This document shows, piece by piece, positions 34,641 to 62,215 of a DNA stretch of 64,000 bases; position 1 is the first letter of the stretch, and each line of letters starts with the position of its first letter. Made by a program: the position numbers and the translations under genes. The notes under the pieces were generated by a model, which made no database searches, was not told where the DNA came from, and saw nothing but the letters and a program-made list of their open reading frames with translations. The DNA lies in the NCBI GenBank assembly GCA_026874595.1, contig CM049320.1, positions 42,790,714 to 42,854,713 on the forward strand, given 5' to 3'. Source of the DNA: Sipunculus nudus. Taxonomy: Eukaryota; Annelida; Sipuncula; Golfingiida; Sipunculidae.

Positions 34641-37199
34641 TGCTGTGTTGGCTGTATTCTTGCAGAGTGACACAATTTATGATACTAATATAACATTTTG
34701 TTCTCTCTGTAAACTGTGACAGCCTTTGTTGTGCTTGCTGTATTGTTACTGAGTGACACCATGTATGATATGACGTTTTGTTCCTTCCGCAGACTGTGAC
34801 AGTCTTTGCTGTGCTGGCTGTGATTTTAGCTCAGCTGACTGTAAGTCATCTGAGCTATAGCGATCACTCTTTGTCAGTCTGTCTGTCTGTCCGTCCGTCT
34901 GTCGTTCTGTCCGTCTGTCCGTGTCCGTTAACCTGGCACAAATCGTCACCGCTGGACCTAGAGTCTTGTAACTTTACATTCTGAGAGGTCCATGAAAAAT
35001 CCTTTGAAACCAGAAATTAGGTCTCTGTTACCCATATCCTTCAAGCTATGGGGCCCCAAAGTACTCCCCAGAATATTCAAACATTTCATACAGAAACTTC
35101 AATATCTCATTAACTACATCACTGATGGTCATGGTTTTTTGCATACATATTGATCATGAGAAGTTTCATCAGTTCCTGCAGACTGGTGGTGCCACCTGTA
35201 TTTTTCGATTTATTACAAATTTTTTTCTCTATTTTGAGACCTTTAAAAATGTGAACATATGTTAACAGGGCACAAATTGTAAAGACTGGACCTAGAATCT
35301 TAATTCTTGATACACTGAGAGACCTATGATAAGTCTCCATGGAAACCAGAAATTAGGTCTGTGTTACCCATATCCTTAGAGCTATGGGGCCCCAAAGTAA
35401 CCCCCCCCCCCCCCCCCCAGAATAGTAAAAAATTTCATACAAAAACTTCAATATCTCATTAACTACATCACTGATGGTCATTTTTTTTTTGCATACATAT
35501 TGATCATGAGATGTTTCATCAGTGTCTGCAGACTGGTGGCGCCACCTGTATTTTTAGATTTTTTACAAATTGTTTTCTCTATTTTTGAGACCTTTAAAAC
35601 TGTGAACATCTGTCAACGGGGCACAAATTGTAAAGACTGGACCTAGAATCTTCATTCCTCACACAGTGAGAGACCTATTAAAAGTCTCTATGGAAACCTG
35701 AAATAAGGTCTCTGTTACCTATATCCTTTGAGCTGTGGGGCTCCCAATTGCCACCCAGAATAATGGAAAATTTAATAAAAACAAATTGCAACATCTCAAT
35801 AACTACAACACTGATGGTCATGATTTTTGGCATACATATTGATCAAGAGGTGTTCCATCAGTTCCTGTAGACTGGTGGTGCTACCTGTATTTTTTCAAAT
35901 TTTTACAATTATTTTTCTCTATTTTTGAGACCTTTAAGGATGTAGTTATCTGTCAACAGGGTACAAATAGTAACCACTGGACCTAGAATCTTCATTCTTG
36001 ATACACAGCGAGACCCTTGAAAAGTCTCCATGGAAACCTGAAATTAGGTCTCTGCTACCCATATCCTTTGAGCTATGGCACTCAAGTACAGCTCAGAATA
36101 ATGGAAAAATTGTTACAAAAGCTGAATAATCTGAACAACTGTTGCAGAGATCACCATAATTGTTTGTATTGATATTGATCATGGAGTGTCTCATCAGTTT
36201 CTGCAGACTGGTGGCACCACCTGTATTTGTTCGGGTTTTTTTACAAACTTTTTTCTCTATTTTTGAGACCTTTAAAGATATGAACATCTGTTATTTGGGC
36301 ACAAATTGTAATAACTGGACCTAGAATCTTCATTCTTGACACACTTGGAGACCCATGAAAAGTGTCTATGAAAACCTGAAATTAGGTCTCTGTTACCCAT
36401 ATCCTTCAAGCTATAGGACTCCAAAATATCCCTCAGAATAATGGAAAATTTGATACAAAAGCTGAAGTATCTGAACAACTAATCCAGAGATCACAATGAT
36501 TCTTTGCGTGGATATTGACCATTAAGTGTTTTTATTAATTTCTGCAGACTGGTGAAACCACCTGTATTTTTTTTAAAGATTATGCATTTTTTCTCCAATT
36601 TTGAGATATATAAATACAGTCACAATCTTGGCCTGTTGGTTAATTTGTTTGATGCTTCAGTTGAATGGGTATATACTACCATTCAGATGATAAAATTTCC
36701 TTTGGTGAATCTCTTTCCAGTCAGCTGAGCGTCATGACCCATGGGTCACTTGTTGCTGTGTGACACTATGTATGATATGATGTTTTGTTCTCTCTCTAAA
36801 CTGTGACAGCCTTTGCTGTGCTGGTTGTATTGTTGCTGACTGACACTATGTATGATATGATGTTTTGTTCTCTCTGTAAACTGTGACAGCCTTTGCTGTG
36901 CTGGTTGTATTGTTGCTGAGTGACACTATGTATGATATGATGTTTTGTTCTCTCTCTAAACTGTGACAGCCTTTGCAGTGCTGGTTGTATTGTTGCTGAG
37001 TGACACCATGTATGATATGATGTTTTGTTCTCTCTGTAAACTGTGACAGCCTTTGCTGTGCTGGTTGTATTGTTGCTGAGTGACACCATGTATGATATGA
37101 TGTTTTGTTCTCTCTGCAGACTGTGACAGCCTTTGCTGTGCTGGATGTGTTTTTGCTGAGTGACACCATGTATGATATAACGTTTTGTTCTCTCTGCAG
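34641..37199 (+). repeat. 80-bp minisatellite carrying the exon 1 splice acceptor
   Basis: Eight upstream units precede the exon, each containing a version of TTTTGTTCTCTCTGCAG joined to ACTGTGACAGCCTTTGCTGT, the first bases of the exon at 37,200. Unit starts can be read at 36,811, 36,891, 36,971, 37,051 and 37,131, exactly 80 bp apart; older units lie at about 34,641-34,823. The AG is kept in three units (near 34,793, 37,119 and the functional site) and changed to AA (CTGTAA, CTCTAA) in the others. A 1.9-kb mobile element (34,826-36,752) splits the third unit. Confidence 0.85.
34826..36752 (+). mobile_element. C''-type HINE-like element inside the minisatellite
   Basis: It starts TTTAGCTCAGCTGACTG, with GTCT/GTCC microsatellite (34,872-34,926), and ends CAGCTGAGCGTCATGACC with palindrome and CACTTG at 36,752. 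Core units of about 330 bp contain GGACCTAGAATCTTCATTC and a GGTGGCGCCACC palindrome (35,534). Neighbouring 80-bp units give the uninterrupted target (GCTGTATTGTTGCTGAG). Confidence 0.7.
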
Positions 37200-37374
37200 A
37201 CTGTGACAGCCTTTGCTGTGCTGGCTGTGGTTTTGCCTACTGCTCTTCAGAGTCAGGAATGTCGTGTTCATGACCCATGTGATTTAGGTCTGACAGTAAA
37301 GCCGGCAGGAGCTACGTTGTGTCATGGAAACGCAAGTGTGAGGCGATGCTGTGTTGCCAGCGCATGTGATGAAG
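37200..37374 (+). CDS. TNF receptor superfamily member, exon 1 of those visible (signal peptide, first cysteine-rich repeat)
   Basis: The exon follows CTCTCTGCAG and ends GATGAAG before GTATGT; it starts in phase 0 and ends in phase 1. The first ~20 residues are hydrophobic (AFAVLAVVLPTAL) and followed by QSQEC, which looks like the core and cleavage region of a signal peptide. No in-frame ATG lies between the acceptor and that core, so the initiator must be in an upstream exon that I could not locate. Six cysteines follow (ECR, PCD, LCH, RCC, ACD) with one N-glycosylation sequon (NAS), fitting a first TNFR cysteine-rich domain. The first ~37 bases of the exon are homologous to the 80-bp minisatellite units upstream. 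The receptor would sit in the plasma membrane and bind a TNF-family ligand; this is inference from family. Confidence 0.8.
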
Positions 37375-38093
37375 GTATGTCCAAACCTGACTGTAGATGC
37401 AGCTTAGAAACCTCCCCCTGAATTGTCTATCCATCTCACTTCAGTAACACAGGTTCACTTGTTGAGGGGCATAACAAATGATGTCCTCTAATACCTATGA
37501 ATGGGTGACCTTAACCTAGGATAAAGAAATCACCCTGTGTCACAATGGTTTGTAAATCCTTTGACTTAAAAATATATTATGTTGATCCAGATTACCTAAA
37601 AAATGTAATTGATGTTCCTTGGGCATTACACTTACCCTCAGAAAAGTTTCACCATATTTCATAGTCTTTAGCTCGCCCGGAACAAAGTTCAGGAGAGCTA
37701 ATACCACACCCAGGGCATTATAAGCCTCAGTATCATCAGTAGACAGCTCAGGTTAAAGTTTTTTTATCTCTTATAACTCGGCATCCAATTCAAAGTCAGA
37801 GATCACCAGACTTTGTGACATCATGATGACTTAGCACTTTCATGCATTTTCATGAAATTCATTCAAGTATTTACCAATATAGTTTCTTACCTGAATTATA
37901 CAATCTGCATATTTAATGAGGCCTGTCTATCCAACTCTCTGTTAAACGGGCACATCTTGAAATCGTTGGACCTATGAATCCAAAATTTTACACACAGTTA
38001 TGTAACTTTATTTGGGCAGCACCAGCAGTAACCACCACCTGCAGAAATTAATCTCTGTACTTTTGTCTGTCTCTCTCTCTCAGACCCATCACC
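37375..38093. other. intron sequence with decayed element start
   Basis: Start of the 7.6-kb intron between exons 1 and 2. At about 37,668 a phrase TTTAGCTCGCCCGGAACAAA resembles another class of element 5' end in which AGCTC pairs with GAGCT 25-30 bp later (TTCAGGAGAGCT). A CT tract lies at 38,071-38,081. Confidence 0.45.
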
Positions 38094-39745
38094 TTTTGTA
38101 GTTCACCTGTGAACTTATGCCATGGTGCAGCATCCGCCGTCCACTGTCAACTGTCCACCGTCTGTTACCAAATATCTCAACAGCCACAGCAGCTGCCTTC
38201 ATGAAACTCTGCAGAATTACTGATCATGGGATGAATATGCAAAAATAAGCTTTTGGTGGCGCCACCTATGTTGACCTAGTTTCTGCGGGCCAAAATGGTC
38301 TTTTTTACTTCTTCCAAGATAAGTCATAAAGTATAAATATTATGGCCTTCATATCATAGGCAAAAGTTCCTTAGAGGAAGGGGAAAATTTGAGTATAAAT
38401 TCAGTCAAGTCATTTTCAAAATGGTGTCTCTACAGAACTTAAATTGTTTCGATCGCAAATTTTGGCAACTTGATGTGTTTCCATACATGATGTATTGTCT
38501 GATACCAAATATCTTAGGAACTGCTAGCCCCTTCAGTTTCAAATTTCACAGGAATATTGATCATGTGACAGGCTAAATGATTTTGACCTCCAGGTGGCGC
38601 CACCTGTGTTGACCTACTTTCTGCTGGTTGTAATGGTCTTTTCTGCTTTTTCCAAGATAAGTCATAAAGTATTAATATGTTGGCCTTCTTCTCACAGGCA
38701 AAAGTTCTTTAGAGGAAGTGGACTAATTTGAGTATAAATTCAGTCAAGTCATTTTCAAAATGGCATCTCTACGGAACTTTAAATTGTGTCGATCATAAAA
38801 TTTGGCAACTTGATGTGTTTCCATACATGATGTATTGTCTGTTACCAAATATCTTAGGAACTGCTACAGCCTTCAGTTTCAAATTTCACAGGAATATTGA
38901 TCATGTGACTGCGCAATGATTTTGACCTCCAGGTGGCGCCACCTGTGTTGACCTTTCTGCTGGTTGTAATGGTCTTTTCTGCTTTTTTTCCAAGATAAGT
39001 CATAAAGTATTAATATGTTGGCCTTCATCTCATAGGCAAAAGTTCTTTAGAGGAAGGGGAATAATGTGAGTATAAATTCAGTCAAGTCATTTTCAAAATG
39101 GCATCTCTATGGAACTTCAAATTGTGTCTATCGCAAAATTTGGCAACTTGATGTGTTTCCATACATGATGTATTGTTTGTTACCAAATATCTTAGGAACT
39201 GCTGCAGCTTTCAGTTTTAAATTTCACAGGAATATTAATCATGTGACTGCTAAATGATTTTGACCTCCAGGTGGCGCCACCTGTGTTGACCTACTTTGTG
39301 CTGGTTGTAATGGTCTTTTCGGCTTTTTCACAGATAACTTATAAAGTGATAATATTGTGGCCTTCATATCATAGGCAACAGTTCCTTAGAAGAAGTTGAA
39401 TAATTTGAGTATAAATTCAGTCAAGTCATTTTCAAAATGGCGTCTCTACGGAACTTTAAATTGTGTCGATCTCAAATTTTGGCAACTAGATGTGTTTCCA
39501 TACATGATGTATTGTCTGTTACCAAATATCTTAGGTACTGCTACAGCCTTCAGTTTCAAATTTCACAGGAATATTGATCATGTGACAGGCTAAATGATTT
39601 TGACCTCCAGGTGGCGCCACCTATGTTGACCTACTCTCGGCTGGTTGTAATGGTCTTTTCTGCTTTTTCCAAGATAAGTCATAAAGTATTAATATGTTGG
39701 CCTTCATCTCATAGGCAAAAGTTCTTTAGAGGAAGGGGAATAATT

Positions 39746-41214
39746 GTATCCGCCAAAACGAAGTTTTGCGGATACTATGTTTTTGACCGGGTTCCGCCGC
39801 CGCCGCCGCCGCGTTCGTTTCCGGAGAACTCCTCTGAGACTACTGGACAGATTTTTCCGAAACTTACACAAATTATCGGGTCACATGTGAACTGGTGCCT
39901 AACCAAGTTACCTTGACCTCTGACCTTTCGTCTCTGCCCAGCGTCCGTTTGTGCGTCTGTTTACACACATAAACCCATATATCTCGGGAACCGTTTGACC
40001 GATCCGGAAAATTTTTTTACACAAATGTAGCCCTGGGATAGCTTTATAACATACACAACAAAAGGTGGCGCCACCTGCAACCATGTTTGCACAGTGTCCA
40101 TCTGTTCATCTGCCTGGGGTTAAAATCACTCATATCTCTGCAGTGGTTTGACTAATTCACCTAAAATTTGGCATGCATATACATCCTAGATAGCTTTCTC
40201 AATTTTATGACAGGTGGCGCCACCTACATTCACGTTAACGCTCCACACATAAACCCATATATCTCGGGAACCGTTTGACCGATCCGGAAAAAAAATTTAC
40301 ACAAATGTAGCCCTGGGATAGCTTTATAACATACACAACAAAAGGTGGCGCCACCTGCAACCATGTTTGCACGGTGTCCATTTGTTCATCTGCCTGGGGT
40401 TAAAATCACTCATATCTCTGCAGTGGTTTGACTAATTCACCTAAAAATCGGCATGCATATACATCCTAGATAGCTTTCTTGATTTTGTGACAGGTGGCGC
40501 CACCTACATTCACGTTAACGCTCCACACATAAACCCATATATCTCGGGAACCGTTTGACCGATCCGGAAAAAAATTTTACACAAATGTAGCCCTGGGATA
40601 GCTTTATAACATACACAACAAAAGATGGCGCCACCTGCAACCATGTTTGCACAGTGTCCATTTGTTCATCTGCCTGGGGTTAAAATCACTCATATCTCTG
40701 CAATGGTTTGACTAATTCACCTAAAATTCGGCATGCGTATACATCCTAGATAGCTTCCTTGATTTTATGACAGGTGGCGCCACCTACATTCATGTTAACG
40801 CTGCAGACATCCAAGCTCATATCTCGGGAACCGTTTGACCGATCCGGAAAAAAAATTTACACAAATGTAGCCCTGGGATAGCTTTATAACATACACAACA
40901 AAAGGTGGCGCCACCTGCAACCATGTTTGCACAGCGTCCATCTGTTTGTCTGCTGTGGGATAAAATCACTCATATCTCTGCAGTGGTTTGACTTTTCCAC
41001 TTGAAATTTTGCATGTGTATATATCTTGGATAGTTTCTCGTTCAAATAACAGGTGGCGCCACCTACAATCATGTTTATGTGGCAGAGATCCAATACTAAT
41101 ATTTTACATATGTAACTCTATATCCCCTTGCCACTCAATCCATGCCTCACTTCACCTGTCCTTCTCTGATTTTGGCGGATACACGTAGTCGCTTGTCGAC
41201 TACCCGTATTCTAG
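39746..41214 (+). mobile_element. family A HINE-like element in a family D core unit
   Basis: Complete copy: GTATCCGCCAAAAC-GAA-GTTTTGCGGATAC hairpin, GCC microsatellite (39,793-39,812), 280-bp core units starting ACACATAAACCCATATATC at 39,965, 40,245 and 40,525, TTTGGCGGATAC, GTAGTCG hairpin and CTAG. The intact target GAATAATTTGAGTATAAATTC is present in the preceding D units at about 39,059 and 39,401. Confidence 0.8.
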
Positions 41215-41461
41215 TTTGAGTATAAATTCAGTCAAGTCATTTTCAAAACGGTGTCTCTACAGAATTTCAAATTGTGAAGATCGCAAAATTTTGCAACTTG
41301 ATGTGTTTCCATACATGATGTATAGTCTAGCTTTTACCAGATATCTTAGGAACTGCCGCAGCTTTCAGTTTCAAATTTCACTGGAATATTGATCATGTGA
41401 CTGCTAAATGATTTTGACCTATGCCACCTATGTTGACCTATTTTCTGCAGGTTGTGATGGA

Positions 41462-42913
41462 AGTTTTGCGAAATGAAGTTTTGCGGATACTATGTTTTTG
41501 ACCAGGTTCCGCTGCTGCCGCCGCGTTCGTTTCCGGAGAACTCCTCTGAGACTACTGGACGGATTTTTCCGAAACTTACACAAATTATCAGGTCACATGT
41601 GAACTGCTGCCTAACCAAGTGACCTTGACCTCTAACCTTTCCTCTTTGCCCAGCGTCCGTTTGTGCGTCTGTTTCCACACATAAACCCACATATCTCAGG
41701 AACTGTTTGACCGATCAGGAAAAAATTTTTACACAAATGTAGCCCTGGGATAGCTTTATAACATACACAACAAAAGGTGGTGCCACCTGCAACCATGTTT
41801 GCACAGTGTCCATCTGTTTGTCTGCCTTGGGTTAAAATCACTCATATCTCTGCAGTGATTTGACTAATTCACTTAAAATTCGGCATGCATATACATCCTG
41901 GATAGCTTTCTTGATTTTATGACAGGTGGCGCCACCTTCATTCATGTTAACGCTGCAGACATCCAAGCTCATATCTCGGGAACCGTTTGACCAATCAGGA
42001 AAAAAATTTTACACAAATGTAGCCCTTGGATAGCTTTATAACATACACAAAAATGGTGGCGCCACCTGCAGCCGTTTTTGCACAGTGTCCATCTGTTTGT
42101 CTGCCTTAGGTTAAAATCACTCCTATCTCTGCAGTGGTTTGACCAAATTAACTGAAATTTGGCATGCTTATACATCCGGCATAGCTTTCTTGATTTTATG
42201 ACAGGTGGCACCACCTACATTCACGTCACGCTGTAGACATCCATGCTTATATCTCTGGGCTTGTTCAACCAATCAGGAAAAAACTCAAATGTAGCCCTTG
42301 GATAGCTTTATAACATACACAGAAATGGTGGCGCCACCTGCACCCATTTTTGCACAGCGTCCATCTGTTTGTCTGCCTTGGGTTAAAATCACTCATATCT
42401 CTGCAGTGGTTTGACCAAATTACCTGTAATTCAGGATGCGTATACATCCTGGATAGCTTTCTTGATTTTATGACAGGTGGCGCCACCTACATTTACGTTC
42501 ACGCTGCAGACATTATTGCTTATATCTCTGGAACCATTTGACCAATCAGGAAAAATGTTTTACACAAATGTAGCCCTTGGATAGCTTAATAACATACACA
42601 AAAAAGGTGGCGCCACCTGCAGTCATTTTTGCACAGTGTCCATCTGTTTGTCTGGTGTGGGATAAAATCACTCATACCTCTGCAGTGGTTTGACTTTTCC
42701 ACATGAAATTTTGCATATGTATACATCTTGGATAGTTTCTCGTTCAGATAACAGGTGGCGCCACCTACAATCATGTTTATTAGGCAGAGAGTCATTCTAA
42801 TATGTAACATAGTAACTCTATATCCTCTTGCCACTCAATCCATGCCTCACTTTACCCGTCCTTCTCAGATTTTGGCGGATACACGTAGTCGCTTGTCGAC
42901 TCTCCGTATTCTA
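41462..42913 (+). mobile_element. family A HINE-like element, second copy in the D array, 5' end lost
   Basis: The right junction (CTAG then TTTGAGTATAAATTCAGTC) is identical to that of the copy at 39,746, while the left junction is broken: the D unit stops at GTTGTGATGG and family A resumes at GAAGTTTTGCGGATAC. The matching insertion point argues that the D unit with A inside it was duplicated, followed by a deletion. Confidence 0.7.
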
Positions 42914-43387
42914 GTTTGAGTATAAATTCAGTCAAGTCATTTTCAAGATAGCATCTCTACAGAACTTCAAATTGTGTAGATCGCAAATTTTGGCAACTTG
43001 ATGTGATTCTATACATGATGTATTGTCTTTTACCAAATATCTTAGGAACTGTTGCAGCCTTCAGTTTCAAATTTCATAGGAATATTGATAATGTGACTGC
43101 TAAATGATTTTGACCTGCAGGTTGCGCCACCTGTATTGAGCTACATTTGCTGTGGGTGAAAATTGCTCATATCTCAGGAGCATTGTTCTGAAATTGGCAT
43201 GTGCATTTATCTTGGAAAGTTTTCTGTAAAACCAGACAGGTCGCGCCACCTATCTTGTGCAATATAGAACACTGTCCATTTGGAAAGGAATTAATGGTTT
43301 TTTCACATTCACTTTTTTTCTTTTTTTAATCACCCACCATCATGCACAGTAATTCACAGAGTGAACATTAGACCCCTGGGTCTCTTG

Positions 43388-44791
43388 TTCCTTATTACGT
43401 TAGAAAATGGTTTCAGGTCACAATGTTCACATATGATAATATACTCTATCAGATTTAGTTTATGCTCTATTGAAAATGGAAAATTTTTGTTACAGTATTT
43501 TATGTCAGATAATAAATTAGTATTATTATACTTCAGCTCAGCTGCACTTTCTTCCTTAAATTCTATAAATAACAGGGTTTCATACATTACCAGTTGGTAT
43601 TCTACACACATATCACAGTCACATAGTTGAAATACTGATATTTTTACAAATATTTGATCATGAGAGGCATCATACAAGTAAATCATAAAGTGCACACAGG
43701 ACTGTTAACATGACCATTAGAATTTTATACAAATATTCTCAAAATTATTTTCAGGTCAGCTTTCTGGACTTTCACTACATTTTGGATTTTGTTTTGTATT
43801 ACAAGAGATTACAATGAATAAAGTGCACTTTCAAATGTGTCCACAAAGTGATGTATTGCTGTGAAAGTGTGGATGTTCATATTGTGAGGTATTGCATTCT
43901 TTCTTAACATGTGTGAAATTGAGTGTTAATGTTGGTATCAAATTATTGTCTAGAAACAATAATAATGAGATTTATGATATTGTTTCTTCCTCATCCAATC
44001 AACAGTGTGTATACCTGATTTGAAAAGGGAACATTAAATCAGTTTTACTTAATCTTTTATTTTAGTTTATAAAATTTAAGCAAGTACATTGAACTGAAAC
44101 TCCAATGTACAAAACTTTTTTCAAAAAGTTATCTAAGGAATAATCTCAGAGATGCCATATTGTACCAATATGGATGTTTTTGTGATTTATCTTAAAAATT
44201 ACATTTTCTTTTGAATTCAGTATGAAAATATTAAAGTTTAAAAAAAAATCATTACTTTGTATAATCTGACATGATATGAGCCAAATTAAGGATATTTAAG
44301 TTTGCAACTTCTAATTCTGTATTAACTTATATTATCAGATTTTGTATAAATTTGTACAATTAAAAAATATTGAATATGATTGAAAAAATTTAGTCTTTTC
44401 AGACATGCTTTTATTATTCTCTTGATAAAAATTGATATGCTGAAAAAAAGGGTTCAGTATAAACATGAAATCATTATTAACCTGCATAAGCAAAAAGTGA
44501 TCAGTTCTGTCCATATGAAATTGTTCATCTTTAAATATTTCATATCAACATAGTATCTCAAACAGTTATTGCTTTTGTCATGGCAATCAATTGTAAGAAT
44601 ATTTGGGTGGCAATCATAGATTTAGTATCTGATTATCACCAAATAGCAGGAAAATCATTTAGCACTGCCATTACTTCTAAGCTTTTTAAATGCTAATATA
44701 TGTGAAAATAAAGAAAATTAGAAATAACAATATTTGCATTCGTGTAAATTTTACAAAATGCAGCTGAGTGCCGTGACCCATGGGTCCCTTG
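43388..44791 (+). mobile_element. decayed family C 3' half
   Basis: The stretch around 43,770-43,880 (TTTTGTATTACA...GTGTCCACAAAGTG) matches, with many changes, the unique 3' half of family C at about 4235-4330. It ends with CAGCTGAGTGCCGTGACC, the GACCCATGGGTC palindrome and CCTTG at 44,791. No 5' half is visible. The family D element lies directly upstream and may have landed in it. Confidence 0.55.
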
Positions 44792-44970
44792 TTTTTCAAG
44801 GGTTTGTATATTTTGTAATGTACCTTTTACATTTATGTTTCCATAGTGAAGGTGAGTGTATACAGTGTACGGCAATAAAACAAGTGACTGGTATTTAATC
44901 CATTGTAATTTGTGATTTGATGATACAAAGGGATAAGGCAGATCCTGATGTTCTGTACCTCATCTATTAG

Positions 44971-45117
44971 GCACTCAGGTCAAACTTTGTGATATCAGCC
45001 AGGGCGTGTACAGGGCTCAGTGTGTACCATGTCCAGAAGGGTACTTCCAGGCAGGCAAACACTTCACAACTGATATGTTTTCATGTGGCAGATGGAAATC
45101 CTGCCTGTATGACAGAG
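44971..45117 (+). CDS. TNF receptor superfamily member, exon 2 (cysteine-rich ectodomain)
   Basis: Acceptor TCTATTAG, donor GACAGAG|GTATGT, 147 bp, phase 1 to phase 1. The exon encodes TQVKLCD, then QCVPCPEGYF, a phrase typical of TNFR cysteine-rich domains (C-x-x-C-P-x-G-x-Y/F), followed by SCGRW and SCLYD. Five cysteines in all. Phase-1 joining with exon 1 restores a glycine (G|GC). A symmetrical 1-1 exon of this sort can be gained or skipped without frame loss. The ORF is open only in this frame across the exon. Confidence 0.88.
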
Positions 45118-45756: not shown

Positions 45757-45891
45757 GTTGGAGAATAATAAAGAACGGGACATCGCGTCAGGATCGCAAG
45801 TGTGTGTGTGACCAGAGCCGAGGCTACTATGAGGAGAGTGACGTGTGTTACCGGACCCGTTGTCCAGCAGGGGAACAAGTTGATGAGTTTG
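45757..45891 (+). CDS. TNF receptor superfamily member, exon 3 (cysteine-rich ectodomain)
   Basis: 135 bp, phase 1 to phase 1, joined as GG|T (glycine). It encodes WRIIKNGTSRQDRKCVCD, then RGYYEESDVCY and TRCPAGEQVDEF. RQDRKCVC...GYY is the classic linker between the last cysteines of one TNFR repeat and the first of the next (compare the R-D-T-V-C-x-C pattern of vertebrate members). One N-glycosylation sequon (NGT). The last 31 bases of the exon and its donor TTTG|GTAATA are the founder of the 51-52-bp minisatellite that follows directly, so several near-identical donors compete downstream. Confidence 0.88.
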
Positions 45892-46272
45892 GTAATACAG
45901 CTAACTTTATATTGTCCAGCAGGGGAACAAGTTGATGAGTTTGGTAATACAGCTAACTTAATATTGTCCAGCAGGGGAACAAGTTGATGAGTTTGGTAAT
46001 ACAGCTAACTTTATATTGTCCACCAGGGGAACAAGTTGATGAGTTTGGTAATACAGCTACTGTTATATTTTCCAGCAGGGGAAAAGTTGATGAGTTTGGT
46101 AATACAGCTACCTTTATATTTTCCAGCAGGGGAAAAGTTGAAGTGTTTGGTAATACAGCTAACTTTATATTGTCCAGCAGGGGAAAAGTTAATGAGTTTG
46201 GTAATACGGCTATCTTTATATTGTCCAGCAGGGGAACAAGTTGATGAGTTTTGTAATACAGTAACGTTATAT
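45861..46272 (+). repeat. 51-52-bp minisatellite carrying the exon 3 splice donor
   Basis: Eight units start at 45,861, 45,913, 45,965, 46,017, 46,069, 46,120, 46,171 and 46,222. Unit 1 is the end of exon 3. Each unit has TCCAGCAGGGG (CCACCAGGGG in one), GTTGATGAGTTTG or a near version, then GTAATAC, so a donor and a possible AG acceptor recur in each. Units 1-4 are 52 bp; later ones lack a base in the GGGGAACAAG segment. Unit 8 has TTTT before GTAATA. Overlapping ORFs across this tract are repeat read-through. Confidence 0.9.
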
Positions 46273-46275
46273 TGT

Positions 46276-46435
46276 GTGCATATATTTTTTAAATCTCATA
46301 GTAAAGTGAGACTGATAAATGTCTGTGCATATATTTTTAAAACTCAAAGTTAAGTAAGACTGATATTTGTGTGTGCATATATTTTTAAAATCTCATAGTA
46401 AAGTGAGACTGATATTTGTCTGTGCATATATTTTA
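46276..46435. repeat. 49-bp tandem repeat, about 3.3 copies
   Basis: GTGCATATAT occurs at 46,276, 46,325, 46,373 and 46,422, with intervening TCTCATAGTAAAGTGAGACTG. It begins where the previous minisatellite ends and stops about 40 bp before exon 4. Confidence 0.85.
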
Positions 46436-46472: not shown

Positions 46473-46545
46473 GTGATTGTGAACCATGTCCCAGGTACAC
46501 ATACAAATCATCCCAAGGCTTCCACGGGTGTATTCCTGTTACACA
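46473..46545 (+). CDS. TNF receptor superfamily member, exon 4 (cysteine-rich ectodomain)
   Basis: Acceptor TTGCTTTTTACAG, donor ACACA|GTGAGT, 73 bp, phase 1 to phase 2. It encodes GDCEPCPRYTYKSS and FHGCIPVT, another C-x-x-C-P start of a TNFR repeat with three cysteines. The short length and change of phase mean exons 4 and 5 must be used together to keep frame. Confidence 0.85.
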
Positions 46546-47402: not shown

Positions 47403-47550
47403 ACTGATACCTCAGAAAAACCCCAGATGTTGATACCTCAGAATACTACAGATGTTGATACCTCAGAAAACTACAGATGTTGATACCTCAGAAAAACCAC
47501 TTATGTTGATACCTCAGAAAAACCACTGATGTTGATACCTCAGAAATAAC
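47403..47550. repeat. 25-26-bp tandem repeat, six copies
   Basis: Repeated GATACCTCAGAAAA followed by CCACTGATGTT or CTACAGATGTT. Confidence 0.9.
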
Positions 47551-47589
47551 TCTGATCCTTTTGTTGTTCCATCTATGGAAATATAAGAC

Positions 47590-47905
47590 GCAATAAGATT
47601 TCTGTTTATTTACATTATGTGAAAGCTAACATAAATTAAGATGAAATAAGATTACCATCATTTACTTTATATGACAATGAATATAAAGTAAGATCAATTA
47701 AGATTTCTTTTTTCTTTAACTTATATAACAATTAACATAAAATAAGACACAAGAAGATTTCTATTTGTTTATCTTAAATATGACAATTTACATAAAGTAA
47801 GATTAAATAAGATTTCTGTTTATTTTTCTAATATGGAAAAGTTAATAATAAGTAAGATGCTACAAGATTTCTATTTATTTCTATTTCATATATAACAATT
47901 AACAT
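47590..47905. repeat. about 52-bp AT-rich tandem repeat, six degenerate copies
   Basis: AAGATTTCTGTTTATTT or a variant recurs near 47,597, 47,648, 47,700, 47,754, 47,808 and 47,861, with a shared AACATAAA-TAAGAT tail. Confidence 0.75.
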
Positions 47906-48147
47906 AAGGTTGCAGTCCTGTGTGTTAGATATAGCATCACAGTTATAACTAAATTGGATACTTAAAATGTTTGTTTGTCCAAATATAAAATCATAGGCGT
48001 CATATCATCACATACAATTTTGATGTATTTTGACAATGCAATAAAAACTTATTAACAAACTCTCTTTTACTATCAGTTTTCTGTAACAAATCTTTAACAC
48101 ATCAGGAAATAAGTAACACAGTGAAGACGTGCTGCTTTTGTTTTCAG

Positions 48148-48212
48148 TTGTGAAGATAATGGGTGGATAGAGATTGCTCGTTACAACAAAACCCATGATG
48201 CTGTTTGTCAAA
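48148..48212 (+). CDS. TNF receptor superfamily member, exon 5 (end of cysteine-rich ectodomain)
   Basis: Acceptor TTGTTTTCAG, donor GTCAAA|GTAGGT, 65 bp, phase 2 to phase 1. It encodes HCEDNGWIEIARYNKTHDAVCQ in two parts: a cysteine, a hydrophilic stretch with a glycosylation sequon (NKT), and a closing cysteine in a T-H-D-A-V-C pattern comparable to the T-x-D-x-x-C end of TNFR repeats. This is the last cysteine-bearing exon before the membrane. Confidence 0.85.
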
Positions 48213-50823: not shown

Positions 50824-50918
50824 GAGTTTCTCTCTTTCTCTCTCTCTCTGGCAGTCTAGGTCTCTCTTTCTCTCTCTCTCTCTCTCCTCTGCTTTTTCTC
50901 TTTCTTTCTCCATCTTTC

Positions 50919-50967
<49 letters not shown>
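50824..50967. repeat. CT microsatellite / long pyrimidine tract
   Basis: Almost uninterrupted CT and CTTT repeats; gives Ser/Leu-rich or Arg/Glu-rich spurious ORFs on the two strands. Confidence 0.95.
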
Positions 50968-50971
<4 letters not shown>

Positions 50972-51490: not shown

Positions 51491-51506
51491 CCCCCCCCCC
51501 CCCCCC
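51491..51506. repeat. poly-C tract
   Basis: Sixteen C in a row; similar poly-C runs lie near 12,268 and 35,401 inside other element copies. Confidence 0.9.
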
Positions 51507-53091: not shown

Positions 53092-53221
53092 GACCAGCCG
53101 CGAAAGAAATTACTACCAAAGTCAAAGTTAATCAGAGTACAGAAGCAACAGTGTTCACTGTCCAACCTACAGGACAAGTTGAATCACGTCGCCACGGTAC
53201 CAGATCTGCCAAATTTAATCT
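53092..53221 (+). CDS. TNF receptor superfamily member, exon 6 (juxtamembrane linker)
   Basis: Acceptor GATATTGCAG, donor AATCT|GTAGGT, 130 bp, phase 1 to phase 2. It encodes about 43 residues without cysteine, rich in Lys, Thr, Val and Gln, with one sequon (NQS) and a basic cluster (ESRRHGTR). It lies between the last cysteine repeat and the transmembrane exon, so it is an extracellular stalk; the basic cluster could be a site for proteolytic shedding, which is inference only. Confidence 0.8.
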
Positions 53222-53367
53222 GTAGGTATCACTTCGCAGTTTGAGAACCAGCTGACAAGCATGGTTGTTTACAAAGTGTTTGTTTCTCATGTGCCTATCA
53301 ACAGTTGAATGATTGTTTATTCCTTAATTTTGCAGACATCATTGTACAATTTTTGAAAGACAATTGT

Positions 53368-54180
53368 TTTTTAGCAAACCTGTGAGCTTATGGGATGGTG
53401 CGTCATTGTCTGTCGTATGTCGTGCGTCGTCTGTACTTTAACCATAGCTATCTCAAAAATGGCAGGAGCTAGCATCACCAAATTTTTGCAAATAATCTGT
53501 AATCTGAAAAACTCTATTGAATTTTATTTATTTTTTTTCTAACTGTATTTTCTTAGATTTTATGGGGAAAAAGCTAAAAAGCTATAAAAACCTTCTTCTC
53601 CGAAAATGTCCAGCCAAATTGTCCATTATTTCACAGAAATGATCCCTGGAACAATCTGAAACCATATGACCAAAATGTTTAATATCGCACAGAAATGATC
53701 CTAGACCAGTGCTTTCTGAAGTTTGTTCAAATGGTCTCTGTTCAGTGATTTTGGCTAAGTTATGGGAAACTGAAGTTAGTCATATGCCATAACAGCCCAT
53801 TTTAGCTCAGTGGCTACAAAGATCTTCTTCTCAAAATCCACTTGGCCCAATTCTTAAATCTCACATATTAATTATCCTCAGATGTTGATAATTCAAGTTT
53901 GTTCAAATGGTTTTGGTCCAGTGCTTTTCGGCTGAGTTACAGGAAACTGAACTTAGCCAAGTTGCTGTATCTTCCTATATGAGTTATAAACCTGCGAAAC
54001 GTTTTTCGGCTGATGCCACTGAAGCCAGTTTGTTAAATATTAAACAAGAATAATCCCTACAATAATTCTTATAATAATTGTCATTAATGGTTCCAAATGA
54101 ATGATTTTTGGCTGAATTATAAAGATTGAATTGAGTCATTTTACCATATATGTTAGCTGTGTAGAGCAGATACATCTAGC
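53368..54180 (+). mobile_element. family D-related element, decayed
   Basis: It starts TTTTTTAGCAAACCTGTGAG, as does the element at 63,774, followed by a GTC-rich tract (53,408-53,445) and the phrase ATCTCAAAAATGGCAGGAGC. Core phrases around GTTTGTTCAAATGG recur at about 53,724 and 53,896. I could not find the 3' terminus. Confidence 0.5.
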
Positions 54181-54644
54181 CTGGCACCAGTTTATCAGCA
54201 TCTATTACATCATACCACTAGACATTTAGATTTCAGGTTATCTTTGGTTAATATTGACAAGAAAGTTTTTTTAAAAGCTTTTAAAAAAAATTAGATTTAT
54301 GATTTAAGTTGTTCATCATACCAGGCAATGTTACAATCATGGATATACAGCTCTCTGTGGCTATATAAAGACAACTGTACATGGATTATAAATTATTGGT
54401 ATCCCTACTCAACTTTATTCAAGTATTTTGCATTCAGTATGTATCTGTAATAATTTTACATATATTCCTGATTTCTTTTTTTATAAAAAGTCAGCTGAAA
54501 AGCATTTTGTATTGGGAAAATTAATTTCAAAGTTATTTCAAGTAGGGACCACTTTTGTGTACAGATTGCCAGTGCCTTGATGTTGGTCATTAGCCAAGAT
54601 GATGTCAGTTCTATAAATAGTTTTGGCACAGTGCCAGGATTGGA

Positions 54645-54862
54645 AGAAGTGCAGCCAGGTATAGGTCAAGAGTTCACTCAGTGCAGTAGCTGAATTCTAT
54701 TTATTGCTTTGGCAGACTGCTCACTGCATCAGATTTGGCACCAAAGTTCAGCCTGGATCTATTTATAGCTTTGGCAGACTGTCAACTATGTCAGATTATG
54801 CAACAGGTCAAGAGTTCACTCAGTGCAGCCAGGTACAGGTCAAGAGTTCATTCAGTGCAGTA
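54645..54862. repeat. dispersed short duplications
   Basis: AGGTCAAGAGTTCACTCAGT (or ATTC) occurs three times (about 54,664, 54,807, 54,837), with CCAGGTATAGG/CCAGGTACAGG before two of them; a second phrase GGCAGACTG also recurs. Confidence 0.75.
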
Positions 54863-54939
54863 GCTTGAGGCAGCAATTTGTCACAGTTCACTCGGGCGCA
54901 ACTGCCTTACTCACCTAAGCCTTGTCAGCCCAGTGCATC

Positions 54940-55285
54940 AAACGCTGGGGAAGTTTGATATATTGGCCTGATATTTTGACCTGTGTATGCCTCTTTGATG
55001 GTATTCTCATTTACAAGACAGGTGGTGCCACCTACATTGACTTTTGCAGGGTATGCGCCCGCTTATTTCTACTGAGGAATATGATACATCAGCCTAAAAT
55101 TGGGCATGTTTATACATATCGGGTAGCTTTATAGTGTACAAGACTGGTGGCGCCACCTACAATAAATTTTGCACAGTGTATGTCCCTGCTTATTTCACAG
55201 GAAGGGTTTAACATATCAGTCTAACATTGGGCATATGTATATATCTCTTCGTTGCATACAAGACTGATGGTGCTAGCTACAATCA
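54940..55285 (+). mobile_element. GGTGGCGCCACC core-unit fragment
   Basis: Three units of about 115-120 bp each end in a GGTGGCGCCACC-like palindrome (55,020 degenerate, 55,146 exact, 55,267 degenerate). Belongs to an A/D-type core but carries neither terminus. Confidence 0.5.
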
Positions 55286-56153
55286 TTCTATCTGCCAAAA
55301 CAGAGTTTTGCAGAAACTATGTTTTCAGTTGGACACCGCTGCCGCTGCCACCGCCACATAGATTTCAGACGAACTCCTCTGTAACCACATGTGAACTGCT
55401 GTGCCCTCATTTTTGGCTGACCTCTGACCTTTCTGCTCTGCCCAACGTCCATTTGTGCATCTGTTTCCACACATAAACCCACATATCTCGTTAACCATTT
55501 GACCGATCAGGCTAAAAAATTGCACAAATGTAGCCCTTGGATAGCTTTATAACATACACTAAAATTGGTGGTGCCATCTGCAACCATTTTTGCACAGCGT
55601 CTATCTGTTCATCTACCTTAGGATAAAATCACTCATATCTCGGCAGTGGTTAGACTTATCCACCTGAAATTTAGCAGGTTTATACATCCTTGACAGCTTT
55701 CTTAATTTTATGACAGGTGGCGCCACCTACATTCACATTCACGCTGCAGACATTCAAGCTCAATCCTCGGGAACTATTAGACCAATTGGGCAAAAATATT
55801 GCATGTATAGATCTCACATAGCTCTTTATCATACGCAAAACTTGTGGCGCCACCTGCAACCATTTTTGCACAGCATCCGTCTGTTTGTTAGCCGTGGGAT
55901 AAAATCACTCATATAGAAGTAGTGGTTTGACATATCTGCCTAAAATTTTGCATATGTATACAACTTGAACAGCTTTCTGGATTTTGTGGTAGGTAGCGCA
56001 ACCTACATACACATTTTGGCTGCAGACATCCAGGCTATTATGCAACACACCTCGCTCTATTTCCCCTTGCCACTCAATCCATGCCTCACTTCACCCATCC
56101 CACTCTGATTTTGGCGGATACACGTAGTCTCTTGTTGACTACCCATATTCTAG
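55286..56153 (+). mobile_element. family A HINE-like element in intron 6
   Basis: 5' end decayed (ATCTGCCAAAACAGAG pairing with GTTTTGCAG), GCCGCTGCC tract, core palindromes at 55,718 and 55,846, then TTTGGCGGATAC, a hairpin with mismatches (GTAGTCT/TGACTAC) and CTAG at 56,150-56,153. Shorter than other A copies because it has fewer core units. Confidence 0.65.
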
Positions 56154-56790
56154 TTTTTGTGTTGTGTGCACCCATGCCAAAATTTCAGCAGTGATGTTTG
56201 TAATTGTTTCTTGTTTTAAGTGTTTAGTACTTTCATTGTTCATATACATGTTACACATGTTCTTGAAAAGTAATTGTCCAGCAATGAAGCATTATACCAT
56301 GTGTAATCTCATTGCACAGGTTCACATTAGGCCTGTAGGCCTTGTTTATTGTCATCCACTGTTCTTTCAGAAAAAAATGTGTACCATATATCTCTCAGCA
56401 CCTAGACTCTCCCAAATTTCCAGTTGTAAGCTGACCAGGCATTCAGATATTAAGAAACCCCAATTAACAGCATACAGCGCTACAGATGGCAAGGTTTAAC
56501 CTGTAATATAAACCAATATCACAGTTCTGCCACCCTATATTCTACAAGTCAACAAACACTTCCTCATGACATTGCTGTCTCATATCATTTCCTTAAGCTT
56601 AAATAACCATTCCTGGTACCCATCTCTGTCTGATGATGTAAGTAGGATATGATAATAGAAGAGATCTTGGACAATGGTTGTCAAGTAAAACATTTAATTT
56701 CTTCAACTCACCTGTCCTTGAGACTGTACCTGTCAAAGAACAGTCTACACCTCAAAGAGGAAGTACTTGTTATCTGCAAACAGGCACAAG
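56154..56790. other. intron 6, no feature seen
   Basis: A 111-codon plus-strand ORF at 56,164-56,499 has no recognisable domain and is not supported by splice context. Confidence 0.45.
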
Positions 56791-57440
56791 GTAGAAATCT
56801 ACTAGTCAGTTAGCTTAACCATTAGGTACTATTGTACATAATTTGTACTCAAGATGGTACAAATCTACTGATCATTTAGCTTAACCATAAGATACCATGG
56901 TACACAAGTTGTACACAAGATGGTACAAATCTACTAATCAGTTAGCTTAACCATAAGATATTATGGTACACAAGTTTTAAACAAAATAGTACAAATCTAC
57001 TAATCAGTTAGCTTAACCATAAGATACCATGGTACACAAGTTGTACACAAGATGGTACAAATCTACTGATCAGTTAGCTTAACCATGAGATATCATGGTA
57101 CACAAGTTGTACACAATATGGTACAAATCTACTAATCAGTTAGCCTAACTATAAGATACCATGGTACACAAGTTGTACACAAGATAGTACAAATCTGCTA
57201 ATTAGTTAGCTTAACTATAAGATACTATGGTACATAATTTGTACACAAGATGCTACAAATCTACTGATCATTTAGCTTAACCAAAAGATACCATGGTACA
57301 CAAGTTGTACACTAGATGGTACAAATCTTCTTATCAGTTATTTTAACCATAAGATACCATGGTACACAAGTTGTACACAAGATGGTACAAATCTTCTAAT
57401 CAGTTATCTTAACCATAAGATACTATATGGTTCATAAGTT
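56791..57440. repeat. 66-bp minisatellite, about ten copies
   Basis: GTACAAATCTACT recurs at exact 66-bp steps (56,857, 56,923, 56,989 and on). Each unit contains the inverted repeat GTACA-CAAGT-TGTAC and the phrase TTAGCTTAACCATAAGATA. It ends about 200 bp before exon 7 and does not include a splice site. Confidence 0.9.
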
Positions 57441-57644
57441 GCAGTCATAATCCTCCCAGGCACCAGAGTGGTTATATTTAACATTGATTCATGATCAGTT
57501 AAAAAAATATTTTGTTTACAAACATGAGGTGAGAAAATGAAATTATTAGAAAGAATATAATCCAATCTTCAATGAATCTACTTTCTATGAACTTAATGTG
57601 CCGGTACGGTTACAGTTGATATACCTGTATGTTTCTATTTGCAG

Positions 57645-57838
57645 GCCTCTTTTGATAGGAATACCTGTCGGATGCACCATCATATTGCTGGTGCTGGTTT
57701 TGGTGCCATGTTTTGTTTTACGGGGCTGTCGTTTGAAGAACTCTTATTCAGACAATGAGTCCTGTGAGTCACTGAGTGGCAAATATACATATAAAGGAAA
57801 AGACAAATACATCACAGAACCCAGGGAGGAACACCAGA
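57645..57838 (+). CDS. TNF receptor superfamily member, exon 7 (transmembrane helix and start of tail)
   Basis: Acceptor TTCTATTTGCAG, donor CACCAGA|GTAAGT, 194 bp, phase 2 to phase 1. The first ~24 residues are one hydrophobic helix (LLIGIPVG, then IILLVLVLVPCFVL) followed by LRGCRLKN, a positive-inside stop-transfer flank. With the upstream signal peptide this gives a type I topology. The tail start is polar and rich in Ser, Tyr, Lys and Glu; TEPREEHQ contains P-x-E-E, which agrees with the loose TRAF-binding consensus (P/S/A/T)-x-(Q/E)-E, but a four-residue match is weak. If the intron were retained the frame stays open for 13 more codons to a stop at 57,877-57,879. Confidence 0.88.
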
Positions 57839-58722
57839 GTAAGTCACAGTATATAAAAAAACCCTGTGCAGTAAATTAAATTTTACAGATAAGAAAGAAT
57901 ACAAGAGGTAACTAGTGACAAGACACTTTATGAATGTAAAATATCCTGGGTACCAAATATGAACATTAACAGGAGTATGTCAGTACAATATTAAAGCAGT
58001 GCAGTTTGTCATGCATTTATGCAGGCTTGTTATTTATATCTAAGTGATTGAATACAATTTTTTTAGGTTGCATAAAAAATATTCTTTGATTACTGATTAA
58101 CTGAATATTTTTCTTCATGGAAATAACTGTTAAAAGAGAACACTGCTGTAAGCCCCATGCCTTCTGTATGTTAGCAGGTTGACCTGACATAACATTATAT
58201 CTTCTGAAGTGATTAATGTCCATCACTAATTATAATTTAATGATCAGTTACATAACAGCTTTGTAAGTTAAGGTCTATATTTTTAACATTACAGATTTAT
58301 ATTTAATGCTTAAAATAATATTATGGCATTGAGAGTTTTATATTAATGTTAACATAAGTATCAGCTGTGTAACTTTAACATTAGTATCATAATTAATATT
58401 ATTTAATGCTCACACTGGTTATATCAGGGCAGTGTAAGTTAATGCTAATATTAGTAACTTTGCAGAAATATAACAATACAGCTTTGTTAGTTTATGTGAG
58501 CATTAGTTGTATTACAGCAGTTTTATAAAATGTGAGGGTTAATGAAATTACAGCAAAATAAAATAATGCTGACATTAGACAAAAATAGGGCAATATATGC
58601 TAACACTAACATCAGTAACATTACAGAATAATGCAAGTTAAAGCTAATATTCCTAGATATGTCTTGCTTTGTTGTAAATGTACTAGTATGAGAAATACAC
58701 TTTCTTTCACCCTAAATTTCAG
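57839..58722. other. intron 7, AT-rich
   Basis: Contains loosely repeated AGTTAATGCTAATATTAGTA-like phrases between 58,250 and 58,650 but no clear unit. Ends CCTAAATTTCAG. Confidence 0.55.
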
Positions 58723-58857
58723 ATAAAATAAACGACAAGTTGGACAGTATATCAGATGTTAAGGGGTACCACTTAGCAGTCAAAGAAGCTGTCAACAGAC
58801 AGGAGTCCTGTGACAGCGGGTATGAGGCCTACACCAGAGCAGACAAAGCAGGGCAAG
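58723..58857 (+). CDS. TNF receptor superfamily member, exon 8 (cytoplasmic tail)
   Basis: Acceptor CTAAATTTCAG, donor GGGCAAG|GTGAGT, 135 bp, phase 1 to phase 1. It encodes 45 polar residues including DKLDSISDV and RQESCDSGYEAY; no domain is recognised. The last nine bases (CAGGGCAAG) and the donor are repeated about 73 times in the intron that follows. Being symmetrical, the exon can be skipped without changing frame. Confidence 0.85.
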
Positions 58858-61800
58858 GTGAGTATCTCATAACAACATAACAGGGCAAGGTGAGTTACCA
58901 ACATCTGTCATCTCATAACAACTAGAAAAGGGCAAGGTGAGTTACCAACATCTGTCATCTCATAACAACATAACAGGGCAAGATGAGTAACCAACATCTG
59001 TCATCTCATAACAACATAACAGGGCAAGGTGAGTTACCAACATCTGTCATCTCATAACAACATAACAGGGCAAGGTGAGTTACCAACATCTGTCATCTCA
59101 TAACAACATAACAGGGCAAGGTGAGTTACCAACATCTATGATCTCATAACAACATTACAGGGCAAGGTGAGTTACCAACATCCATGATCTCATAACAACA
59201 TAACAGGGCAAGGTGAGTTACCAACATCTGTCATCTCATAACAACATAACAGGGCAAGGTGAGTTACCAACATATGACCTCATAACAACAAAACAGGGCA
59301 ACATGAGTTACCAACATCTGTCATCTCATAACAACATAACAGGGCAAGGTTAGTTACCAACATCTGTGAATTCATAACAACATAACAGGGCAAGGTGAGT
59401 TACCAACATCTGTCATCTCATAACAACATAACAGGGCAACATGAGTTACCAACATCTGTCATCTCATAACAACATAACAGGGCAACATGAGTTACCAACA
59501 TCTGTCATCTCATAACAACATAACAGGGCAAGGTTAGTTACCAACATCTGTGAATTCATAACAACATAACAGGGCAAGGTGAGCTACCAACATCTATGAC
59601 CTCATAACAGCATAACAGGGCAAGGTGAGTTACCAACATCTGTCATCTCATAACAACATAACAGGGCAACATGAGTTACCAACATCTGTCATCCCATAAC
59701 AACATAACAGGACAAGGTGAGTTACCAACATCTGTCTTCTCATAACAACATAACAGGGCAATGTGAGTTACCAGCATCTATGATCTCATAACAACATAAC
59801 AGGGCAAGGTGAGTTACCAACATCTATGATCTCATAACAAAATAACAGAGCAAGGTGAGTTACCAACATCTGTCATCTCATAACAACATAACAGGGCAAC
59901 ATGAGTTACCAACATCTGTCATCTCATAACAACATAACAGGGCAAGGTGAGTTACCAACATCTGTTATCTCATAACAACATAACAGGGCAAGGTGAGTTA
60001 CCAACATCTATGATCTCATAACAACATAACAGGGCAAGGTGAGTTACAAACATCTGTGATCTCATTACAACATAACAGGGCAAGGTGAGTTACCAACATC
60101 TATGATCATCATAACAACATGACAGGGCAAGGTGAGCTACCAACATCTATGACCTCATAACAGCATAACAGGGCAAGGTGAGTTACCAACATCTGTCATC
60201 TCATAACAACATAACAGGGCAACATGAGTTACCAACATCTGTCATCCCATAACAACATAACAGGACAAGGTGAGTTACCAACATCTGTCTTCTCATAACA
60301 ACATAACAGGGCAAGGTGAGTTACCAGCATCTATGATCTCATAACAACATAACAGGGCAAGGTGAGTTACCAACATCTATGATCTCATAACAAAATAACA
60401 GGGCAAGGTGAGTTACCAACATCTGTCATCTCATAAAAACATAACAGGGCAAGGTGAGTTACCAACATCTGTCATCTCATAACAACACAACAGGGCAAGG
60501 TGAGTTACCAACATCTGTGACCTCATAACAACACAACAAGGCAACATGAGTTACCAACATCTATGATCTCATAACAACATTACAGGGCAAGGTGAGTTAC
60601 CAACATATGACCTCATAACAACAAAACAGGGCAAGGTGAGTTACCAACATCTGTGACCTCATAACAACACAACAAGGCAACATGAGTTACCAACATCTAT
60701 GATCTCATAACAACATTACAGGGCAAGGTGAGTTACCAACATATGACCTCATAACAACACAACAAGGCAACATGAGTTACCAACATCCATGATCTCATAA
60801 TAACATAACAGGGCAAGGTGAGTTACCAACATCTGTCATCTCATAACAACACAACAGGGCAAGGTGAGTTACCAACATCTGTGACCTCATAACAACACAA
60901 CAAGGCAACATGAGTTACCAACATCCATGATCTCATAACAACATAACAGGGCAAGGTGAGTTACCAACATCCATGATCTCATAACAACATAACAGGGCAA
61001 GGTGAGTTACCAACATCTATGATCATCATAACAACATGACAGGGCAAGGTGAGTTACAAACATCTGTGATCTCATAACAACATAACAGAGCAACATGAGT
61101 TACCAACATCTGTCATCTCATAACAACACAACAGGGCAACATGAGTTACCAACATCTGTGACCTCATAACAACATAACAGGGCAACATGAGTTACCAACA
61201 TCTGTCATCTCATAACAACATAACAGGGCAAGGTTAGTTACCAACATCTGTCATCTCATAACAACATAACAGGGCAACATGAGTTACCAACATCTGTGAT
61301 TTCATAACAACATAACAGGGCAAGATGAGTTACCAACATCTGTCATCTCATAACAAAATAACAGGGCAAGGTGAGTTACCAACATCTATGATCTCATAAC
61401 AACATAACAGGGCAAGGTGAGTTACCAACATCTGTGATCTCATAACAACATAACAGGGCAAGGTGAGTTACCAACATCTATGATCATCATAACAACATAA
61501 CAGGGCAAGGTGAGCTACCAACATCTATGACCTTATAACAGCATAACAGGGCAACATGAGTTACCAACATCTGTCATCTCATAACAACATAACAGGGCAA
61601 GGTGAGTTACCAACATCTGTCATCTCATAACAACATAACAGGGCAACACGAGTTACCAACATCTGTCATCTCATAACATAACAGGGCAAGGTGAGTTACC
61701 AACATCTATGATCTCATAACAACATAACAGGGCAAGGTGAGTTACCAACATCTATGATCTCATAACAACATAACAGGGCAAGGTGAGTTACCAACATCTG

Positions 61801-62215
61801 TGATCATCATAACAACATAACAGGGCAAGGTGAGTTACCAACATCTGTGACCTCATAACAACATAACAGGGCAACATGAGTTACCAACATCCATGATCTC
61901 ATAACAACACAACAGGGCAAGGTGAGTTACCAACATCTGTGACCTCATAACAACACAACAAGGCAACATGAGTTACCAACATCCATGATCTCATAACAAC
62001 ATAACAGGGCAAGGTGAGTTACCAACATCTGTGATTTCATAACAACATAACAGGGCAAGATGAGTTACCAACATTTGTGATTTCATAACATCATGACAGG
62101 GCAAGGTTAGTTACCAACATCTGTGACCTCATAACAACATAACAGGGCAAGGTTAGTTACCAACATCTGTGACCTCATAACAACATAACAGGGCAAGGTT
62201 AGTTATCAACATCTG
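58849..62215 (+). repeat. 46-bp minisatellite carrying the exon 8 splice donor
   Basis: Unit: CAGGGCAAGGTGAGTTACC, AACATCTGTCATCTC, ATAACAACATAA, about 46 bp, some 73 copies over 3.37 kb. The first unit is the real boundary. By eye about 45 intronic units keep CAAG|GTGAG, about six have CAAG|GTTAG, and about twenty have CAACATGAG or CAAGATGAG, in which the GT is destroyed. The variants are interspersed in recurring blocks, so multi-unit higher-order duplication has taken place. Confidence 0.92.

Follow-up and report, generated by a model that had tools for sequence, protein, structure and literature searches.

Three tandem arrays lie within one receptor-like gene of Sipunculus nudus; their unit sequences are unrelated, and each unit contains a splice junction of that gene. 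The locus raises the question of whether minisatellites meet exon-intron junctions by chance and, if they do not, how such arrays arise and whether the repeated splice sites are of use to the gene. We addressed it in a window of 64,000 nucleotides (the whole stretch of DNA analysed, part of contig C15 in a 1.43-Gb genome assembly) and by pattern searches run genome-wide. The partial gene model comprises five exons, a gap and three further exons, joined in frame on either side of the gap (Table 1). Its assignment to the TNFR superfamily (TNFRSF), made in the first-pass annotation, is plausible but not secure: the joined Cys-rich exons matched TNFR_c6 with E 0.0015 and 19.3 bits, below the Pfam cut-off of 29.4, and DUF5874 and Ephrin_rec_like scored about as well. 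A recent paralogue was sought as an outgroup, and only a distant one emerged (G000:C15:55323507-55325815, minus strand, best E 0.05).

Table 1. Predicted exons of the receptor-like gene and tandem arrays associated with them (window coordinates)
Feature	Position	Strand	Unit and copies	Basis and remarks
Isolated, older stretch of A1-unit sequence	34657..34827	+		84% identity to A1 end
A1	36750..37228	+	80 bp x 6.0	TRF; unit is intron tail, acceptor and exon head
Signal-peptide-like exon (TVTAFAVLAVVL...)	37200..37374	+		Open frame, in-frame junction with next four exons; acceptor multiplied by A1
Cys-rich exon	44971..45117	+		In-frame model; weak TNFR_c6 match across joined exons
Cys-rich exon, donor multiplied by A2	45757..45891	+		Sequence reading, in-frame model
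A2	45860..46275	+	52 bp x 8.1	TRF; unit is last 32 nt of exon, donor and intron head
Cys-rich exon downstream of A2	46473..46545	+		In frame with exon preceding A2
Further ectodomain exon	48148..48212	+		Donor position chosen between two candidates
A4	56790..57423	+	66 bp x 9.6	TRF; purely intronic
Exon with hydrophobic helix, probably transmembrane	57645..57838	+		Translation read by eye
Presumed cytoplasmic exon, donor multiplied by A3	58723..58857	+		Sequence reading, in-frame model
A3	58864..62228	+	46 bp x 73.2	TRF; every unit has donor GGCAAG/GTGAGT or a decayed form
Next exon, 5' part only	63404..63559	+		In frame with exon preceding A3

TRF, the sequence itself and the in-frame exon joins agree on the three junction-containing arrays that the first-pass annotation had described. 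Its statement that the arrays begin at junctions holds for A2 and A3, both of which start at donors, but A1 is their mirror image, running from the intron into the exon and ending at the acceptor CTCTCTGCAG/ACTGTG (37199/37200). The A2 junction reads TTTG/GTAATA at 45891/45892, with a 32-nt exon tail identical to the second unit, and that of A3 reads GGCAAG/GTGAGT at 58857/58858, where the identity to the exon covers 9 nt (from 58849). The sequence near position 34,641, where the feature had been taken to start, is the older patch of the A1 unit and stands apart from array A1. The 66-bp array A4 is free of junctions, as first reported; it ends ~220 bp upstream of the next exon, which probably encodes a transmembrane helix. 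The count of three arrays in four at junctions was selective, since it left out other arrays in the gene region: TRF also detected arrays of period 26-55 bp at 46275-46434, 47405-47546, 47584-47907 and 62234-62802, and arrays of longer period at 34952-36571, 38255-39745, 39964-42777 and 55012-55245.

When the eight arrays of period 26-80 bp were placed at random in 27.6 kb with 15 junctions, 0.23 junction overlaps were expected, and three are seen (P 0.0017). Because this test is post hoc, we turned to the rest of the genome, searching for three perfect copies of a 9-mer spaced 15-45 bases apart, a pattern that marks minisatellites of period 24-54. The donor word AAGGTGAGT gave 217 such matches genome-wide against 4 for its backward control, while as a single word it is the rarer of the two (8531 vs 11149). 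For a second donor word, CAGGTAAGT, there were 393 matches against 128, the single-word counts being 15332 and 12946. A scramble of its letters, CAGTGAAGT, yielded 193 matches (its reverse 36), about half of the 393, a point against the junction-seeded reading set out below. Triple matches clump, and arrays are therefore the fair counting unit. On C1-C4 we counted 13 arrays for CAGGTAAGT, three for the backward control and five to six for the scramble; AAGGTGAGT formed eight arrays among the first 100 matches listed, compared with at most four for its backward control in the whole genome (Fisher P 0.024 for CAGGTAAGT and 0.0015 for AAGGTGAGT). These counts rest on the first 100 matches listed per pattern (complete for the acceptor word TTTTGCAGG), which span C1 to part of C6 for AAGGTGAGT, C1 to the start of C5 for CAGGTAAGT, up to C12 for the backward control, up to C8 for the scramble and up to part of C3 for the acceptor word TTTTACAGG. 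The backward control comprised 10 places, of which nine were fetched; a pair among the 10 is separated by 8 kb on C10 and may be a single array. The scramble comprised 12-13 places, of which eight were fetched.

An evident coding exon ends at the first donor copy in 15 of the 22 donor arrays, and none of the 17 control arrays (nine backward, eight scrambled) starts at an exon end when read in the same way (Fisher 7e-6; 6e-5 once L050, L053 and L105, control arrays whose start lies outside the fetched stretch, are set aside). Exon ends were found at five of eight AAGGTGAGT arrays (L014, L016, L017, L018, L020) and at 10 of 14 CAGGTAAGT arrays (L023-L028, L032-L035), and the arrays lacking a clear one were L015 (perhaps a coding repeat), L019, L021, L022, L029, L030 and L031. 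Exon calls were made partly by eye by a reader not blinded to array class, and a mechanical coding score pointed the same way but separated the classes only moderately (14 of 22 donor and five of 17 control arrays above the 90% point of the null; Mann-Whitney P 0.011); both points count against the junction-seeded reading. The score was rejected as sole judge, as the known exons of the receptor-like gene score 5.8-20.9 and the 90% point of the null is 7.2. It is too weak for that role, and the calls therefore rest on an open frame from the acceptor through to the first donor copy, on identity between unit and exon and, in some cases, on homology. One control array (L046, G000:C1, ~49.30 Mb) is a 24-bp repeat within an open reading frame, away from splice sites. 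Much the same peptide (YERA.WSWNQST) precedes CAGGTAAGT at L029 (near 838) and at L062, so that a dispersed repeat accounts for some CAGGTAAGT sites.

Junction arrays exist at both ends of introns. Triples of the acceptor word TTTTACAGG numbered 347 against 64; nine of its arrays were fetched and eight could be evaluated (L044 was dropped, its end being unreached), of which one ends at a coding exon (L039). For TTTTGCAGG there were 31 matches in 10 places against one, an unfair comparison in that the backward control holds a CpG; four of the 10 places end at a coding exon (L094, L096, L098, L100), L097 is no array according to TRF, and the ambiguous L102 was counted as non-exon. Only five of 18 evaluable acceptor places thus end at a coding exon, a share that again speaks against the junction-seeded reading. 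The phenomenon looks stronger at donors than at acceptors, but the acceptor words are less specific, so the contrast between the two is weak.

Homology fixes the junctions in several of these genes. A LARS1 intron (L018/L114, G000:C5, ~2.849-2.855 Mb) carries a donor array of 42 bp x 25 at its 5' end and an acceptor array of 41 bp x 10 at its 3' end, and the exons flanking it encode adjacent residues of cytosolic leucyl-tRNA synthetase in a gapless alignment (E 3e-22). If the protein is intact, the outermost copies must be the sites used. L094 (G000:C2, ~4.430 Mb) matched USP39 (E 1.2e-15), itself a splicing-factor gene, and bears an acceptor-seeded array. The array L112 lies where an exon of TUBGCP6 ends (E 1.6e-6), and further matches were to an aquaporin (L016, E 6.6e-10), an ABC transporter (L026, E 3.4e-5, below the cut-off), a PH domain (L025, E 0.016), HADH (L028), thioredoxin (L035), DNA-PKcs (L034, E 0.6), a natriuretic-peptide receptor (L098, E 1.3e-6) and a RIM-like protein (L096, E 0.1); L100 offers an open frame only. 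In L072 (G000:C1, ~2.4615-2.4631 Mb), a TPR exon lies between an acceptor array of 40 bp x 27 and a donor array with a unit of 62 bp; arrays likewise stand on both sides of the L034 exon. Copy number reaches ~136 (L017). Pfam searches gave no match for the peptides of L014, L017, L018 (first exon alone), L020, L023, L024, L027, L032, L033, L034, L039, L015, L029, L031, L046, L094, L096, L098, L100, L066 and L102, and PDB searches gave none for those of L033, L024 and L023. Since homology places junctions in LARS1, USP39, TUBGCP6, HADH and others, the class is not immune-specific, and the link to immune genes proposed in the first-pass annotation did not survive: array-bearing genes, the aquaporin gene included, are mostly non-immune.

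We consider it very probable that these arrays are junction-seeded minisatellites of the 'mirage' type known from amphioxus, begun by a silent duplication across a splice site and enlarged by intronic growth. The first step would be a tandem duplication of a short piece of DNA straddling the splice site. Where this is a donor, the copy adjacent to the exon would keep the complete exon end and a working 5' splice site, and later copies would become intron; at an acceptor, the copy beside the exon would work and earlier copies would become intron. With the outermost site still working, the duplication would be silent, escape selection and be as free to expand as other minisatellites in introns. 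This model would explain both the polarity of the arrays, with donor arrays running from exon into intron and acceptor arrays up to the exon, and the slice of exon in their units. Homology and open frames point to use of the outermost site; the inner copies presumably take no part in splicing. Anatomy, polarity, the slice of exon, the recurrence across many unrelated genes, the excess over control motifs and the neutral-looking drift of the repeated sites are direct observations, whereas the route of duplication, and the choice between a hotspot and a merely tolerant place, are matters that we infer.

The strongest competing account agrees on the nature of the arrays and denies a hotspot: duplication may occur at a uniform rate in a genome with abundant minisatellites, junction arrays being the tolerated share that falls on splice sites. 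We give this account about an even chance. Many intronic arrays lie away from junctions; the exonic slice of the unit measures 3-42 nt, or 0.05-0.93 of the unit, in 19 donor arrays, as random placement would give; and the repeated sites look neutral (see below). How large the excess is turns on the share of motif sites that are real donors. Among single CAGGTAAGT sites, 16 of 37 passed the coding threshold and fewer did so by eye, which brackets the real share. Real shares of 20, 27 and 50% give odds ratios of exon-verified arrays to backward control of 10, 7.5 and 4.0, respectively (P 7e-6 to 0.004), contrary to mere tolerance; if all sites are real, the excess falls to 2.0-fold (P 0.10), as tolerance would have it. 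For a share of 20-50%, the donor excess is thus about 4-10-fold, relative to control sites spread over the genome, so that the odds ratios would be inflated if arrays were overabundant in genes at large. The earlier suspicion that more than chance is at work is borne out by this genome-wide excess, measured against control motifs across the genome rather than at matched intron positions. Arrays on both sides of an exon (L072, L034), at both ends of the LARS1 intron and three times in the receptor-like gene also argue against tolerance alone; such clustering in single genes could likewise stem from array-rich genes.

A less selected sample consisted of 40 places on C1 (37 single CAGGTAAGT sites and three clusters, about half of the first 100 listed), and TRF or clustering revealed arrays over the motif at L064-L066 (probably one), L068, L072, L081, L083 and L086. 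An evident exon was present at two of these six (L066 and L072, not L068, L081, L083 or L086), a lower share than in the pattern-selected donor arrays and a further point against the junction-seeded reading. Both of the two clusters among the first 100 listed single AAGGTGAGT sites lie at exons (L014, L112). L064, L065 and L066/L113 (G000:C1, 1.777-1.794 Mb) present one 53-bp unit type at three places over ~17 kb; the repeat begins at an exon end and perhaps forms one array spanning the ~17 kb.

We advance tentatively, and hold to be somewhat doubtful, the proposal that in this lineage splice junctions, chiefly donors, are genuine hotspots at which minisatellites arise, through a process coupled to transcription or splicing that acts on exon-intron boundaries across the genome and often strikes both ends of an exon or intron. 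If true, the genome would hold numerous natural rows of identical splice sites, with the outermost alone in use. The account in which DNA damage coupled to splicing or transcription (R-loops, breaks at junctions) would turn splice sites into duplication hotspots, also raised in the first-pass annotation, appears unlikely. The donor excess over control motifs and the seemingly smaller effect at acceptors (five of 18) are what such damage might produce, but nothing in the sequence identifies damage, the donor-acceptor contrast is weak, and the same picture would result from a step in GC content where exons end or from genes being rich in arrays overall.

Under selection for variable splice isoforms, for instance in an immune receptor, the repeated sites would serve as alternative donors or acceptors, with the length of the array kept for diversity. 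A3 could supply 43 such donors, all perfect copies of AAGGTGAGT (within 58801-62300), and in five of the 15 arrays computed, the frame continues open for 186-417 nt beyond the true donor. The minisatellite of human IFI6, described in 1995, reportedly lies at an exon end with a short unit carrying donor sites; the title of that description says that it provides multiple splice donor sites, which implies that the donors are used. Our arrays resemble it in lying at exon ends with donor sites in their units, but IFI6 is a single human gene with donors implied to be used, and the sequences examined here give no sign of such use. In the other 10 of the 15 arrays, at least one of the open frames runs into a stop within ~80 nt. 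The unit length is a multiple of three in six of 19 arrays, which indicates no preference for frame, and divergence at the repeated GT does not differ from that at the unit's other positions (P 0.28; the mean percentile is 0.65 over 17 entries, of which 16 are donors). The remaining entry, A1, was represented by another dinucleotide because its consensus has lost the AG: this is kept in the last two of six units, and the other four read TAA there. The repeated splice sites, as far as their letters tell, drift in a manner that fits neutral intronic DNA and so lend no support to selected isoforms. With the same structure in mostly non-immune genes, the isoform selection raised in the first-pass annotation strikes us as highly improbable.

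Least credible, to a degree we regard as close to negligible, is an assembly artefact or a mobile repeat with splice-like motifs by chance, since, although tandem arrays are hard to assemble and copy numbers could be wrong, each array compared copies the tail of its own exon, the loci are alike in architecture and not in sequence, and the ends of A1 and A3, used as DNA queries, found matches only within the region of the receptor-like gene among the best-scoring candidates, and hence no mobile units.

The closest parallel to junction-seeded arrays is found in amphioxus, where 'mirages', minisatellite-like tandem duplications of exon-intron boundaries, are described in Adh3 and the globin genes BflGb6 and BflGb9 (PMC3087553). 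According to that report, they affect both 5' and 3' boundaries, leave regular splicing undisturbed, have the outermost copy used and are unstable in length, and their authors left the mechanism open (PMC3087553); a second report adds troponin C and PGBD5 (PMC3902484). As in the mirages of PMC3087553, the unit spans an exon-intron boundary in A1, A2 and A3, and both types of boundary are hit (donors in A2 and A3, an acceptor in A1, both in LARS1). The LARS1 homology across the junction would agree with use of the outermost copy. The lancelet cases, as presented there, came gene by gene, whereas ours involve many unrelated genes of one genome, set against control motifs, with up to ~136 copies per array and, in some cases, arrays at either end of the same intron or exon. 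The arrays of the receptor-like gene belong to the mirage kind, and what is new is their frequency across unrelated genes of another genome. In the material that our literature search brought up, an earthworm paper included, no report of such a class was found outside lancelets except the IFI6 reference, which does not prove absence. A related process is intron gain by tandem genomic duplication, in which an exonic piece reportedly yields a new intron (PMC4974935). It too copies splice signals by tandem duplication, but our arrays multiply junctions that were already there, and no new intron was seen.

Dozens of identical strong donors, as in A3, or acceptors in a row constitute a natural test of how the spliceosome chooses its sites. 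Junction-seeded arrays also quantify one route of intron growth and offer material from which introns or exon extensions could newly arise. Should the excess hold up against matched controls from within the introns, a mutational process linked to exon-intron boundaries would be indicated. The window further contains, at 32991-42777 and 55012-55245, tandem units of 127-340 bp with the palindrome GGTGGCGCCACC, which represent a different, longer class of repeat.
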